Source: a bacterium
GTDB lineage: Bacteria > JACRDZ01 > JAJRWM01
Length of the DNA stretch: 9,898 nucleotides
Assembly (NCBI GenBank): GCA_024276815.1
Contig: JAJRWM010000184.1
Location: forward strand, 1-9,898
Direction: 5' to 3'
Shown: positions 4,213-9,898 of the stretch, in pieces
Layout of the letters: every line of letters starts with the position of its first letter
Numbering within the stretch: position 1 is the first letter of the stretch
Notes under the pieces: model-generated
What the model was told of the DNA's origin: nothing
Seen by the model: only the letters and a program-made list of their open reading frames with translations
Database searches by the model: none
Program-made: the position numbers and the translations under genes

Positions 4213-7200
4213 CTAATATTGACCCTGAATATCCTGCCAGTCCGTTACTTTCTCACGCATCCGGGGAACATGGTAGTACTTATAACGATAAACCGCGTCC
4301 ATGGAGTGACAGTCAATACACACCCCGGTAGTCACGTTCTTGTTAATTAAAAAGCTGTTGGTGGCGTCGCCTTCAATATTCTTGCCAATGCCGACGCGAT
4401 CATCCAGGTAGGTCCAGCGATGCGCGTTGTGACAACTGGGACAGGAAATTATGCCGTTACGGGAACGCCGGCCGTCAATATCATAAATACGGAAATAATT
4501 CTGCAGATTTTTTATCCCGCGGCCCAGATCGGTTACCACTATGTCCAGGTTGTTGCTGTCATGTTGCGGATGGATCATTACCGGCGGGACTTTTTTCGCC
4601 TCGGAACCACCTTTCCGATGACAACTGGTGCACAGCATCATCGTAACTTCCTGGCCGTCGCCGGGATTCTTCGACCATAAATAAGCGTCCAGAACAGCGT
4701 TATGAACAGAGTGGCAAGCGCTGCACGGTCCGCCGTCGAAAACGGTCTGCCCCAGCATGTTCTTCTCATCGGGAGCGGTGATTTTCATGTCATGATCCGT
4801 GCCGATTACGGTACGGTTCGGTCTATGACAATTGATGCAAAGCGAAGAATTGTCATCGTTGACCATTCTCAGGAAGCTGTTACGCCCACTACCCTCAACC
4901 TTCTTCCCGGGACCGGTTTTCGGACGCCGGGGATCCCAGCGGTGAGGATCGTGACAGGTGGTGCACACCATAATCTTACGCTGATAAACTTCCTTTTTCG
5001 GGACCAGTTCCCGATCTGTCGGATGAGTGTATTTTGATTTATCGCCGCCCGCGTCATTCAGATGACATCCTTTTTTCAGACAGTTCTGGTCCACATAATC
5101 TTCCTTGCCCGGGAAATACCTGGTCAGGATGTTATCCTGGTAATCCTGGTGCATCAAATGACAAACGCTGGCGCATTCTTTTCGCATTCGCGGAGTTATC
5201 CGGTCAGCGTAATCCTTTTTGGTCACCAGCACTGATTTTAACGGCAGGTTGGCTTTACCAATCAGCCAGGAAGGATTGATGCCCACCGGATGCGACGATT
5301 CTCCCACCTGCTTTTCCGCTCCGAGCCGGCCGTCAGAATGACAGCTGAAACAGGCCTGACTCACCGTATCCTTGGCCTCAACCAGTTCCTGCGCCCACAA
5401 CAAATCGTTCAGCCCCTGGTGAACGGTATGACACATCCCGCAAATACCGCTGCTTTTAACTGTTTGACCAAAACGGTTCTCACCCGCGGGAGAGCTGACG
5501 TTCAAATCATGATCCGTACCCAGGATAAAGCGTTTGTCCAAATGACAGGTTAAACAAAGCCGGGCGTCCTTGTCGTTGGGGATCCGTAAGAAGCTGTTCC
5601 GGGTATCGCCTTCGGTATTTTTCTTCGGGCCAATCTCCTTTTTACGGGGGTCCCAGCGATGCGGGTCATGACAGGTATAGCAATAGACTTTACCTTCCAG
5701 TATTTTATTGCCCTTTTCATCATATAACGGCAGGGGGAAATCACGTCCCACCTCGGCGTACTTGCCGGTGGCGCTTGAAATCTGAACATTGGTCGGATGA
5801 GAGTATTCTCCCAGCAGTTTCTTTTCGGCGACTTTACCTTCCTGGTGGCAACTCTTGCAAAGCTGGGCGGCGATGTCCTCATCGCCGCCGGCGATCTTCC
5901 TGGCCCAATTTCGCCGGGCGTTACCGCGATGCACCTTATGGCAAGCGCTGCAAACGCCGCTTTGCTGAACAGTCATCCCGTCGGTATTCTTCTCATTGGG
6001 GCTGGTAACACTCATATCGTGTTCAGTGCCGATTACGTATTGTTTCGAGGTATGACAATTGACGCAAAGCTTCGATTCCGAGCCATTGGAAATCCTCAGG
6101 AAACTGTTATGAGCGTCGCCTTCGGTCTCTTTACCCGGCCCCTCGCTGGTCTTTTTCTCCGAATTCCAGACGTGCGGATCATGACAGGTATAACAGACAA
6201 CGTTGCCCTTTTCCTTTAGATTGCCCTGCTCGTCAAACAGGGGTAGCCTGGTCTTGCCTTTAACGCGGGTAATACTGATGTTGGTTGGATGGGTATACTC
6301 GCCAACCAGTTTCTTGGCGGCGGCGGCGCCCTCAAAGTGACAGGTCTTGCAGAGCTGCGAAGAAAAATCCTCACCCCGCCCGATAACCTCTTTGGCCCAG
6401 CGGCGCCGGTTAATACCATTATGCGGCAAGTGGCAGCTTCCGCAAACTCCTGATTGTTCGGCGGTCTTCCCTAAAATATTCTTTTCCAGCGGCGCGGTTA
6501 TTCTCAGGTCGTGATCAGTGTTCTTGATATAGCTCTTGTCCAGGTAGCATTCCCGGCAAAGAGAGGAATCAGCGTCGTTCTTCATCCTCAAAAAGCTGTT
6601 GTTGCCGTCGCCCTCGGTGCCCAAAGCCCAGGGAATCTTCTCAATCCCCTCAATCGAGAAACGCTCGCCCGGCGTCCAGACGTGCGGATCATGGCAGGAA
6701 GTACAGTAAACCAGGCCGTTCTTTTCCCGTAGCCCAAATTTATTAAACAGGGGCAAATCCGTCTTTTTATCCCCGGCCGGCATATGTTTTTCGGTGGGAT
6801 GGGAATAAAAACCCACCGATTTGTTTTGGGCGAGGTTGCCGCCGCTGTGACAACTCAGGCAAAGCTGGCTGACGATGTCCCCTTCCCCGCTCAGAGGTTT
6901 GGCCCAGGTGTGCGCCGTATGGCATGGCGAGCAAATCCCGCCCTCGGAAACCGTTTGCCCCAGGCTGTTCCTTTCGTCGGGTCCCATCACGAAGAGGTTA
7001 TGATCGCTTAAATAAACCGACTTTTTATCGGCGTGGCACTCAAAACAAATGCTGTTTTTCTTATTGGTTTTCAGCAGGATCGGCGTGCCGGGCGTCCCCT
7101 TGTGAGGATGATGGCAACTGTTACAGATCAATTCCCCGTTCGGCCCCTTTTGCGCTCCCAGCGCCAGCATGCTGTCTGAGACCTGGACCTGGGTCGGCAC

Positions 7201-8643
7201 AATATTCACCGGGTGTTTAATGTCATAAGGTTTTTCACGCTTGACGATGGCGCTTTTCTTCTGGTGACAGGAGCCGCAAAGCCGGGTATCGTTGTTATAA
7301 ACCAACAGGTTGGATGTCCCGGGAACGGAACCGTGTATTTTATGACAGGAGACGCAAACGACCTCGCAGTTTGGCCCCAGCTTGGCGCCTTTGTCAAACC
7401 AGTAATCAGGTATGACAGCCGTTTGCGGAACGATATTAACCGGGTGGGTTCCGATGGCTTCGGCCCTCGCCTTGTTGCTGACGACTTTTCCCTGATGACA
7501 TTCAGCGCAGAATTTACCTCCCAGGTTGGTTTGCCTCAAGATCGGCCCGTCAGACCCGTCAGCCGCGGAATTATCCACGGCGTTATGCTGGATATGGCAA
7601 CCGTTACAACTGATTTTCCCGTTTTCGACAAAGACTCTTTTGGTTGGCTTGATGTTCTTAATGCCGACATCGACCGGATGAGTGCCGGTATTTTCCTCGT
7701 TGATGCCGGAACTTTTCTTGTCCAGATGGCATCGTTTACAGAGACGGGCCTGGCTGTTGTCTTCCACCAGCAGCTTTTTACCGGGGGCGCTGTGCGGTTG
7801 ATGACAGGTACGACAGGTGATCTCGCCGCCGGCCCCGGTGACCGGCTTACGGTTTCCGATCCATGATTCAGGCAGGACCGCGACCTTGAACTTCACGTCA
7901 ACCGGATGAGTATCCTTCCCCGGACCATGACCCGGCATACTGGGATTGGCGGTATGACAGCCTTCGCAAAGAGGCGCCCGGTTGGAGCCGGGGATGCTCA
8001 CCGGCAGAGCTAACAGGTGGTCATAGGGAGAACCGTGGACGACATGACAGGACTGGCAGATGACCATGTTGGGCTTGGTGCCCTCAATCGCCCCGGCGGC
8101 TTTCAGTTCTTCCGAAAACTCCAGGGTATCAACATTAACCGGGTGCATGCCATGAAGTGGCCCTTCCTTTTTGTCTTTATGGCATCCCATACACATTTCC
8201 GAGTTATTGTTGGTGGAACGGAGGAAAAAGGATCTTTCCACGCTGTAGTCTGTTTTACCCCCGTGAGCGGTGTGGCAGGTGCCGCACTCCACCTTTCCTT
8301 TATACAGAGGGTAGAGCCCGGGGATATCCATTTTAGGATAGAACCCCACCGGGTGGCGTTTGTTTGTCCAGACAATGCTCCTGGAATCCCCCAGCGAACC
8401 GTTATGGCAACTAAAACACATCCGCTCGGTAGTAGCCTGCCTTTCCTTGGGCATCGGGACATAATCGGTGCCCTCGCCGGATAAAAACGTCTCCATCCAG
8501 TAATAGTGGCACATGGCGCATTCTTTACGGGCGTCCCGGAATTCGGTCTCTTTAATACTCACTTCGGCCCGAATCGGAATTACGCCCATCCAGAACATAA
8601 TCAGCGCGATGATAAAAACATTTATCGTTTTATTTTTTGGCAT
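4213..8643 (-). CDS. Giant exported multihaem c-type cytochrome (33 CXXCH plus variants)
   Basis: The 1476-residue protein begins with a signal peptide (basic MPKNK, then a hydrophobic core at about 8-21; likely cleavage after A26) and has no later membrane segment, lipobox or cell-wall anchor. It should be a soluble periplasmic or extracellular electron carrier. I count 33 CXXCH haem sites from C42 to H1446, plus CASVCH (1157-1162), CLKKGCH (1188-1194) and a degenerate CRECY (696-700). Residues 120-537 repeat a diheme unit with HPV and CxxCHxxH/G landmarks. Residues 507-1446 repeat a tetrahaem unit of about 170 residues with CxxCHDPHxW, NSFLR, GTDHD, GQTV, CxxCHxVH and SHPT. Many extra conserved histidines could be distal ligands, giving mostly bis-His haems. 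This fits the 'doubled CXXCH' group. It starts 13 bases after the NHL propeller gene stop, with only a weak Shine-Dalgarno, suggesting coupled translation. The redox partner is not visible; no outer-membrane porin lies in the window. Confidence 0.93.
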   Translation of the reverse strand: MPKNKTINVFIIALIMFWMGVIPIRAEVSIKETEFRDARKECAMCHYYWMETFLSGEGTDYVPMPKERQATTERMCFSCHNGSLGDSRSIVWTNKRHPVGFYPKMDIPGLYPLYKGKVECGTCHTAHGGKTDYSVERSFFLRSTNNNSEMCMGCHKDKKEGPLHGMHPVNVDTLEFSEELKAAGAIEGTKPNMVICQSCHVVHGSPYDHLLALPVSIPGSNRAPLCEGCHTANPSMPGHGPGKDTHPVDVKFKVAVLPESWIGNRKPVTGAGGEITCRTCHQPHSAPGKKLLVEDNSQARLCKRCHLDKKSSGINEENTGTHPVDVGIKNIKPTKRVFVENGKISCNGCHIQHNAVDNSAADGSDGPILRQTNLGGKFCAECHQGKVVSNKARAEAIGTHPVNIVPQTAVIPDYWFDKGAKLGPNCEVVCVSCHKIHGSVPGTSNLLVYNNDTRLCGSCHQKKSAIVKREKPYDIKHPVNIVPTQVQVSDSMLALGAQKGPNGELICNSCHHPHKGTPGTPILLKTNKKNSICFECHADKKSVYLSDHNLFVMGPDERNSLGQTVSEGGICSPCHTAHTWAKPLSGEGDIVSQLCLSCHSGGNLAQNKSVGFYSHPTEKHMPAGDKKTDLPLFNKFGLREKNGLVYCTSCHDPHVWTPGERFSIEGIEKIPWALGTEGDGNNSFLRMKNDADSSLCRECYLDKSYIKNTDHDLRITAPLEKNILGKTAEQSGVCGSCHLPHNGINRRRWAKEVIGRGEDFSSQLCKTCHFEGAAAAKKLVGEYTHPTNISITRVKGKTRLPLFDEQGNLKEKGNVVCYTCHDPHVWNSEKKTSEGPGKETEGDAHNSFLRISNGSESKLCVNCHTSKQYVIGTEHDMSVTSPNEKNTDGMTVQQSGVCSACHKVHRGNARRNWARKIAGGDEDIAAQLCKSCHQEGKVAEKKLLGEYSHPTNVQISSATGKYAEVGRDFPLPLYDEKGNKILEGKVYCYTCHDPHRWDPRKKEIGPKKNTEGDTRNSFLRIPNDKDARLCLTCHLDKRFILGTDHDLNVSSPAGENRFGQTVKSSGICGMCHTVHQGLNDLLWAQELVEAKDTVSQACFSCHSDGRLGAEKQVGESSHPVGINPSWLIGKANLPLKSVLVTKKDYADRITPRMRKECASVCHLMHQDYQDNILTRYFPGKEDYVDQNCLKKGCHLNDAGGDKSKYTHPTDRELVPKKEVYQRKIMVCTTCHDPHRWDPRRPKTGPGKKVEGSGRNSFLRMVNDDNSSLCINCHRPNRTVIGTDHDMKITAPDEKNMLGQTVFDGGPCSACHSVHNAVLDAYLWSKNPGDGQEVTMMLCTSCHRKGGSEAKKVPPVMIHPQHDSNNLDIVVTDLGRGIKNLQNYFRIYDIDGRRSRNGIISCPSCHNAHRWTYLDDRVGIGKNIEGDATNSFLINKNVTTGVCIDCHSMDAVYRYKYYHVPRMREKVTDWQDIQGQY
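4306..6705 (-). repeat. C-terminal array of about 170-residue tetrahaem modules
   Basis: Module starts (CxxCHDPHxW or its equivalent) lie at residues 647, 817, 988, 1227 and 1401; the last module is cut short after two haems. Haem spacing inside modules is nearly fixed: about 41-49 residues from first to second, exactly 38 from second to third, and 30-31 from third to fourth. The step is 170-171 residues except between 988 and 1227, where an insert of about 68 residues carries the CX3CH and CX4CH sites. At DNA level, the 19-mer tccagacgtgcggatcatg occurs at 6165-6183 and 6675-6693 (plus-strand sense), exactly 510 bases apart. Confidence 0.85.
7033..8286 (-). repeat. N-terminal array of diheme modules in the giant cytochrome
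   Basis: Six diheme units occupy residues 120-537. The CXXCH pairs start at 120/151, 196/226, 277/302, 346/379, 430/456 and 507/533. Within a pair the spacing is 25-33 residues; between pairs it is 44-51. An HPV(N/D)-type motif usually lies between units, the first haem is followed by an xxH element (for example CHKIHGSVPGT), and the second is preceded by a short L-x-C context. The last unit also acts as the opening of the C-terminal array. The pattern is seen in translation; it implies growth by internal duplication. Confidence 0.85.
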
Positions 8644-8656
8644 AATAATTTCTTGT

Positions 8657-9700
8657 TCAGGGATAATCCTTCATTTGGAAAACACTGACCTTATTGCCCC
8701 ACATTTCCACAACGTATAATCTTTTATCCTTAATATACAAACCAACCGGCGAAGCGAATTTTTTCAATTTATTGTTCACCCCGACAGCTCCCAGAAAGTC
8801 GCCCTCGAAATTGAAAGCCTGGACGACATCGATATAGCTGTCCGAAACAAAACTGTTGCGCTTGGGGTCCAAAGCCAGCCCTTGCGGGCGATAGAACTGA
8901 CCTTTCCGCACTCCCCAGGTTCCCACATCGCGGATATAGTCAAAATCCTCGTCGAGAACCTGCACCCGGGTGTTGCTGACCTCGCTGATGAAAAAATTTC
9001 GGTCCTTATCTATTTGTATGGCGTAAGGAAATCTCAGCTGTTCTTTCTCGAACCCCATAAACCCATAGGTCTTGATATAGACTCCGTTTTCGTCGTAAAT
9101 GAGTATCCTGTGATTGTTATTGTCAACAATGAAGCATTTGGTTCGTTTGTCCGTTATGGTAATAAATATATCGGTTGACACTTTGGGCAGGACAATCGTA
9201 ACGTCAGTGGGATCGGCGGGTTTTTTCCCTTCTTCGGTAGGTATTAATTTAAACAGAAAAAGGAATTTTCCCTCCGGGCTGAAAACCTGGATACTATGAT
9301 TTTTCGAATCTGCCACGTAGATATTGCCGTTTCCCGGATGGACATCCAGCCCCAGGGCATCCCAGAACTCGCCTTTATCGCTTCCCCTTTGACCGAACTG
9401 GAACAGGTATTTGCCCCGCTTGCTGAAGACGACGACCCGGCCGACAACCCCGTCCAGCACATAAATACGATCATCCAGTCCCACGGTCACGTCGCTGGGC
9501 AAGTGGAACGCCCGGCCCCCGCCGCTCTTGAGCTGGAATAAAGGCTTGACATTGACCAGTTCCAGGGCGTAAACCCGAAGGGAGCCCAGCGGCGCCGCCC
9601 AAAAAATCAAAACCGCGGCGGTAAGCGCGGCAAGGCGTTTCGCTGATTTACCCCGGGAATATTGGCCGGACTGGCGATATCTTCGTCTTTGAATTAGCAT
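8657..9700 (-). CDS. Secreted six-bladed NHL-repeat beta-propeller protein
   Basis: The 347-residue protein has an arginine-rich start (residues 5-22), a hydrophobic segment at about 23-41 and a V-Y-A site (43-45), so it is likely exported. There is no lipobox cysteine, and the long basic N-terminus could also act as a membrane anchor. The mature part is a run of NHL-type repeats: about 66-103, 112-150, 163-213, 224-260, 271-306 and 316-345. The landmarks recur as P-x-(D/G)-(V/L)-x-(V/L), IYVAD/FIVDNNNHRI, and a hydrophobic V-x-V-F/Y before G-x-(Y/F)-(L/I). This predicts a six-bladed propeller, normally a protein-binding or scaffolding fold rather than an enzyme. It is the first gene of an operon with the giant cytochrome; NHL propellers are known to sit beside multihaem cytochrome genes in metal-reducing bacteria, so a role in cytochrome assembly or docking is plausible but inferred. 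The ATG at 9700 has only a weak upstream agag. Confidence 0.88.
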   Translation of the reverse strand: MLIQRRRYRQSGQYSRGKSAKRLAALTAAVLIFWAAPLGSLRVYALELVNVKPLFQLKSGGGRAFHLPSDVTVGLDDRIYVLDGVVGRVVVFSKRGKYLFQFGQRGSDKGEFWDALGLDVHPGNGNIYVADSKNHSIQVFSPEGKFLFLFKLIPTEEGKKPADPTDVTIVLPKVSTDIFITITDKRTKCFIVDNNNHRILIYDENGVYIKTYGFMGFEKEQLRFPYAIQIDKDRNFFISEVSNTRVQVLDEDFDYIRDVGTWGVRKGQFYRPQGLALDPKRNSFVSDSYIDVVQAFNFEGDFLGAVGVNNKLKKFASPVGLYIKDKRLYVVEMWGNKVSVFQMKDYP

Positions 9701-9733: not shown

Positions 9734-9784
9734 ATGCTAGCGGCGGAAGACCGCGACCAGGGCAAACGCACTAAAAATATTTAA
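9734..9784 (+). CDS. Possible 16-codon leader ORF
   Basis: An ATG at 9734 opens a 16-residue frame, MLAAEDRDQGKRTKNI, that ends in TAA at 9782-9784. It is preceded by aagagg (9721-9726) at a normal 7-base distance. It lies about 100 bases ahead of the plus-strand gene at 9881. It has no recognisable attenuator codon run and is highly charged. It may be a leader peptide or chance. Confidence 0.15.
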   Translation: MLAAEDRDQGKRTKNI

Positions 9785-9864
9785 AGTATAAGGAAATAGT
9801 TGCGGCAAGATTAAGCGGTACCGGATGACTGACGATATTTTCTCTGTTTACAAAATAAGCCGCG

Positions 9865-9870
9865 AAGGAG
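9865..9870 (+). promoter_or_regulatory. Strong Shine-Dalgarno for the right-edge gene
   Basis: The sequence aaggag lies 10 bases before the ATG at 9881. It is the clearest ribosome binding site in the window and supports a real gene start there. Confidence 0.6.
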
Positions 9871-9880
9871 AAAACAAGTC

Positions 9881-9898
9881 ATGTTAGTAAAGAAATCA
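9881..9898 (+). CDS. 5' end of an unidentified gene, cut by window end
   Basis: Only the first six codons, MLVKKS, are visible. The strong Shine-Dalgarno upstream supports the start. The basic K-K right after the start would suit the n-region of a signal peptide, and the divergent position beside a cytochrome operon makes an exported protein plausible, but six residues cannot identify it. Confidence 0.5.

Follow-up and report, generated by a model that had tools for sequence, protein, structure and literature searches.

A giant bacterial cytochrome with 36 haem-type sites in one chain and its recurrent gene neighbourhood

Introduction

What does a bacterium do with 36 haem-type sites strung along a single polypeptide? 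The question is posed by a minus-strand gene at 4213..8643 of a 9,898-nucleotide stretch of DNA from an uncultured bacterium (the window), which encodes a giant multihaem c-type cytochrome of 1476 aa, identified from its ORF, motif count and Pfam/NCBIfam matches. A sequence-only reading of this stretch had proposed a molecular wire or electron-storage protein with a haem number at the high end for such cytochromes. The functional proposal fits an exported many-haem protein with the set of distal-type histidines described below, while the haem number proved unexceptional, as 34-haem surface cytochromes with deletion phenotypes are known from Geobacter metallireducens (PMC10989804), one bioanode study reported 38 proteins of 30-53 haems (PMC7399161), and 86-haem (PMC9012536) and 113-haem (PMC7327174) proteins have been published. 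The count alone is nothing new, and the gene family and gene context are more informative. Our preferred reading, to which we assign a probability of about 0.6, is that the giant cytochrome serves as a single-chain haem wire on a path that takes electrons away from the quinol pool of the inner membrane.

Haem sites and export

The reading frame (4213-8643, minus strand) opens with ATG and runs for 1476 residues. Motif counting gave 33 CXXCH, one CX3CH at residue 1157, one CX4CH at residue 1188 and one CXXCY at residue 696, identical to the earlier count; shuffled sequences of the same composition contained a mean of 0.17 CXXCH and a maximum of 3. The Tyr of the CXXCY site (6544..6558, minus strand; residues 696-700) is encoded by TAC, one base from the His codon CAC, and both orthologues have CXXCH at this position. 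Since the site aligns with CXXCH in both orthologues and lies one base away from it, 35 haems are most likely, and about 35 bound haems is our best estimate as predicted from motifs; haem may be absent at CXXCY itself. The earlier figure of up to 35-36 sites is thus fair, with 36 positions and 35 haems likeliest. Genes for cytochrome c assembly are encoded by the source genome.

Comparison with cytochrome HMMs agreed with the assignment. The protein scored 223.8 bits against PF09699 (Paired_CXXCH_1; Pfam cut-off 20.6) and 157.3 bits against TIGR01905 (doubled CXXCH; NCBIfam cut-off 25.2), and the c7-type Pfam profile PF14522 also matched.

A signal peptide occupies residues 1-26 (8566..8643, minus strand; cleavage point placed by eye), with a hydrophobicity peak at residues 6-28. 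The best 19-residue hydrophobicity mean was 2.28 in the signal peptide versus 0.85 anywhere later, and no membrane-spanning segment was found after it by hydrophobicity. No Cys follows directly on the signal peptide, so the protein is not a lipoprotein. These features bear out the earlier claim of an export signal without a membrane anchor, and support a predicted exported and soluble protein.

Integrity of the gene in the assembly

The source genome measures 2.39 Mb in 246 contigs and is 91% complete, and the window is the entire contig C115. It is conceivable that metagenome repeats were wrongly joined and that the true protein is shorter, given that the window makes up one complete contig of a fragmented assembly and carries a repeated element at its right end. 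The giant cytochrome gene has no tandem repeats at the DNA level, its tetrahaem modules (see below) have diverged, and colinear 34-site orthologues with 46-47% identity occur in two other genomes of the same small phylum (G001 and G003), which makes a repeat misassembly unlikely. We regard such an artefact as next to negligible in probability, and repeat misassembly, which had been raised as a possible objection, does not apply.

The repeated element, of ~140 bp at 9757-9898 of the window, lies upstream of the neighbouring NHL gene and has copies that are 98-100% identical within the source genome on contigs C216, C62, C243, C118 and C130, most of them close to or at the end of a contig. The assembly was probably interrupted by this element at the right end of the window. 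Downstream of the C118 copy are genes for a threonyl-tRNA synthetase-like protein and a 16-haem cytochrome. No Rfam match was found for the repeat, and no RNA families or tRNA genes were found in the window.

Paired sites and distal histidines

The 36 sites group into 18 CXXCHxxH/CXXCH pairs. CXXCHxxH occurs at every odd-numbered site except the first, which reads CXXCHxxW (8497..8520, minus strand) and alone among the odd-numbered sites of this protein lacks the CHxxH His, and each even-numbered site is followed by a His in an HP, DH[DN] or YYH context. A free His is present in 35/36 inter-motif gaps, at the expected distal-ligand position. When the 42 free His residues were placed at random in 5000 trials, a mean of 24 gaps was filled and a maximum of 31, compared with the 35 observed.

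Two parts can be distinguished. The N-terminal part (7030..8565, minus strand; residues 27-538) holds 14 sites as closely spaced pairs, which span residues 42-538. Profiles of DmsE-type decahaem cytochromes match best at residues 427-605, comprising the last N-terminal pairs and the region after them. The C-terminal part (4255..7029, minus strand; residues 539-1463) holds 22 sites in five diverged tetrahaem modules of ~165 aa each, the fourth of which carries an extra pair, CX3CH ... CX4CH (5062..5175, minus strand; residues 1157-1194). This extra pair retains its CHxxH and THP histidines and for this reason probably binds haem, though the 34-site orthologues are without it. The chain closes with a conserved end, CXXCH...RYKYYH (4270..4320, minus strand).

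Family rules across 14 members

Fourteen family members contain 18, 18, 20, 24, 24, 28, 28, 28, 30, 30, 34, 34, 36 and 38 haem sites, all even numbers; an 18-haem member is encoded in genome L009, and thermophiles have members with 24-28 haems. The first site is without the CHxxH His in 14/14 members and has Trp instead in 12/14. Apart from one more odd site, in G173, the remaining odd sites all have CHxxH, and even sites are without exception followed by a His in the 14 members. The last His lies 12 residues past the His of the last motif, again in 14/14. Since the first site is without CHxxH while the remaining odd and all even sites have a His, the conserved distal-type His residues number N-1 for N haems, by a motif-based count. 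Some members have a non-conserved His near the first site. Judging from these counts, the length of the family appears to have changed by whole haem pairs between fixed ends.

Such a near-complete and family-conserved set of distal-type His residues supports a wire or capacitor as a better fit than an enzyme. A redox enzyme would use an open haem position, either CXXCY or the first pair, to reduce a small sulfur or nitrogen oxyanion. Such positions are offered by the site that has no proximal His and by the haem for which no distal His is conserved, and a relative bearing the same gene cassette appears to be sulfur- and sulfite-respiring (PMC3368423). However, CXXCY is not conserved, as both orthologues testify, no catalytic-family model matched at or above its cut-off, and family members range from 18 to 38 haems, with no odd site conserved within the chain. 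We therefore consider an enzymatic function very improbable.

The NHL neighbour and a recurrent cassette

The gene for an exported NHL-repeat beta-propeller (8657..9700, minus strand; 347 aa; PF01436 and PF17170; signal-type N-terminus) lies 13 bases upstream of the giant cytochrome gene, relatives have the same neighbour, and the two genes are probably co-transcribed. Plus-strand genes (TrpB-like, Fic and TilS) converge on the giant cytochrome gene from the other side; the Fic/DOC family protein (PF02661) is encoded at 1564-2727 of the window, between the TrpB-like enzyme gene and tilS.

In relatives, the NHL and giant cytochrome genes close a longer cassette that encodes a membrane multihaem cytochrome (in most cases with 6 CXXCH as well as longer motifs), a cytochrome b (PF01292), a trihaem protein, the NHL protein and the giant cytochrome. 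The cassette occurs twice in the Nitrospirae genome L009, where the first copy is cut at its start, and with a PF01292 cytochrome b also in G001, G003, G002, G013, G161, G300, G113, G173 and G267; parts or fused forms were found in G312, G327, G054 and G150. A profile built from the last 260 residues found matches in 17/386 genomes surveyed, mostly in other phyla; most of the remoter matches from a first scan of the genome collection (L010-L018) gave little information. No published account of a cassette combining NHL, giant cytochrome and cytochrome b genes, or of the family rules, was found within an incomplete literature coverage, and the published links between NHL proteins and cytochrome clusters or multihaem genes are looser (PMC10734462, PMC10376724). 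The cassette is thus apparently widespread, present in several phyla, and undescribed.

Within the window, the stretch upstream of the NHL gene ends with the contig. The membrane part of the cassette is found on other contigs of the source genome (C14, C88 and C235), not beside the giant cytochrome. The C14 copy (L058:9595-11790) has membrane multihaem cytochrome, cytochrome b and trihaem protein in one frame with a TAA inside cytochrome b, and may be broken or misread; C88 has the membrane part in fused form. C235 has a membrane multihaem protein that lacks an accompanying cytochrome b and adjoins a giant cytochrome paralogue (L019:1-6444) that runs off the contig, with a length of at least 2148 aa, 35 CXXCH and 2 CX3CH. 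Relatives of this paralogue in G001 and G003 have 2427 and 2526 aa, 37 CXXCH and 1 CX3CH, and a long C-terminal extension, which in G001 matches a right-handed beta-helix; they look like surface-anchored or adhesive versions. A larger relative of 2838 aa on G001 contig C83 (L041:2970-11486) has just 22 CXXCH and long haem-free parts, and adjoins cytochromes with 18 and 14 CXXCH. Across the source genome, 71 doubled-CXXCH domain matches were found on contigs including C30, C36, C77, C88, C108 and C195, and the organism is therefore rich in multihaem cytochromes.

Envelope and outer-membrane candidates

LpxA- and LpxB-like proteins, recognised by eye, are encoded on C14 (L058) and suggest that the source organism has a Gram-negative envelope. 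The MtrB/PioB porin (PF11854) was found in 0/4 genomes of the phylum (78-98% complete). In three relatives, a putative barrel protein without a Pfam match is encoded close to the cassette, with cytochromes of 7 or 8 haems next to it. In G113 (L119:8349-15347), the gene for a 28-haem protein is followed by those for more cytochromes and for a 421-aa protein ending in YSF that resembles an outer-membrane barrel; from sequence, these downstream genes are a candidate porin-cytochrome group beside the cassette.

Comparison with known multihaem systems

The MtrA/DmsE-type decahaem cytochromes share dense paired CXXCH with the giant cytochrome but have 10 sites compared with 36 here. The match to TIGR03508 (MtrA/DmsE decahaem) was partial, with 128 bits against a cut-off of 192.2, and TIGR03507 (OmcA/MtrC decahaem) likewise remained below cut-off (75.1 bits; cut-off 209.3). 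An MtrCAB-type conduit differs in that its MtrB porin was not found in the four genomes.

Gene makeup is the basis of a likeness to CbcABCDE of Geobacter, which comprises the 7-haem CbcA, the cytochrome b CbcB and the 11-haem CbcC (PMC10989804). Genes for an inner-membrane multihaem protein, a cytochrome b and a many-haem protein are grouped in both, in our case in relatives, those of the source genome lying on other contigs. Unlike CbcABCDE, the cassette adds a trihaem protein and an NHL propeller, and its large cytochrome has 18-38 haems rather than 11. Gmet_0571 and Gmet_0581 (OmcN-like, 34 haems; PMC10989804), likened here by description, each carry almost the same number of haems in a single exported chain; an immunoglobulin-like domain is present in Gmet_0581, whereas none was found by Pfam in the giant cytochrome. 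The giant cytochromes of ANME and Methanoperedens, with up to 86 and 113 haems (PMC9012536, PMC7327174), also carry very many haems in one chain, but are archaeal, and some have S-layer domains and a C-terminal membrane helix, neither of which was found in the giant cytochrome.

Geobacter sulfurreducens has two single-chain haem wires of similar plan, GSU1996 with 12 haems and GSU2210 with 27 (PMC10138318). Like these, the giant cytochrome is one exported chain of repeated multihaem units that gains its length without a partner, and it shares the PF14522 match. Unlike their trihaem c7-type domains, it is built of haem pairs and tetrahaem modules, has 36 sites and has an NHL propeller as neighbour. 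For lengthy monomeric periplasmic cytochromes such as these two, a role as an electron capacitor has also been discussed (PMC10138318), in which the protein would stay periplasmic and mainly store charge when acceptors run out, without bridging. The lack of a membrane anchor and the failure to find a porin partner in the phylum are in line with this, but the fixed ends and conserved neighbours point to well-defined terminal donors and acceptors, and storage and conduction are not mutually exclusive. We judge a mainly storing role unlikely.

A profile of the tetrahaem modules searched against the PDB ranked 9yuq first (E 1.7e-6) and OmcE second (1.8e-5). OmcE (7tfs) and 9yuq share with one module the order HDL, CXXCHxxHN, LW, CXXCH, LPLF, CXXCHxxH, FLR, LCXXCH; OmcE consists of separate polymerising subunits, whereas the modules here sit in one chain. 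Homology of the modules to OmcE was not established, as the profile with CXXCH masked found no cytochrome at E up to 10, under a severe mask run without a positive control; a distant relationship may still exist. The idea that the modules act as OmcE subunits linked into one chain is a hypothesis.

The same resemblance raises the prospect of an outer-surface or extracellular wire, in which molecules would join end to end and the His of the next molecule would complete a haem, as in OmcE and OmcS, each of which holds a haem liganded by a neighbouring subunit (PMC9473688). The N-1 count of distal-type His residues, the local feature order and the profile ranking are compatible with such joining, and 31% of the 30-53-haem proteins in one study were predicted to be extracellular, the rest being unassigned (PMC7399161). 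On the other hand, the likeness disappeared when CXXCH was masked, no secretion system is linked to the gene, and some members have a non-conserved His near the first site. We consider end-to-end joining distinctly improbable, and retain the single-chain wire.

Discussion

For the single-chain wire, we propose the following route. The cytochrome b and the membrane multihaem cytochrome of the cassette would oxidise quinol and hand electrons to the giant cytochrome, whose haems would form one continuous chain along which electrons hop across the periplasm. The acceptor would be at the outer membrane or external, such as a mineral, sulfur, a partner cell or a porin-cytochrome complex. The NHL propeller may act as an assembly or docking partner, and a contact end may be marked by the one haem for which the chain supplies no conserved distal His. 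Wire length would be set in evolution, as haem pairs and tetrahaem modules were gained or lost between the fixed ends.

Given rises of 34 A per 4 haems for OmcE and 47 A per 6 haems for OmcS (PMC12954529), we estimate that 36 haems laid straight would reach ~28-31 nm; the earlier proposal that the protein could bridge a periplasm is an inference on this footing. AlphaFold2 models of residues 27-640 and 560-1476 from three-row alignments had a mean pLDDT of 27, too low for use.

A more specific version of this proposal envisages a widespread, as yet undescribed electron-export system with a fixed-end wire whose length changes in steps of one pair (18 to 38), extending from the quinol complex across the envelope, and with the ligand of its terminal haem supplied by a partner, either the NHL propeller or the next wire. 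We offer it tentatively, as doubtful in this full form.

The giant cytochrome family forms a natural series of lengths (18 to 38 haems) in which ends and neighbours stay constant, and offers a way to ask how the length of a wire relates to conduction or to envelope width. The cassette-bearing genome G013 appears to be that of Desulfurobacterium thermolithotrophum, a cultured thermophile that grows strictly anaerobically and uses sulfur, thiosulfate and sulfite for respiration (PMC3368423); if this identity holds true, the wire system would be open to bench study.
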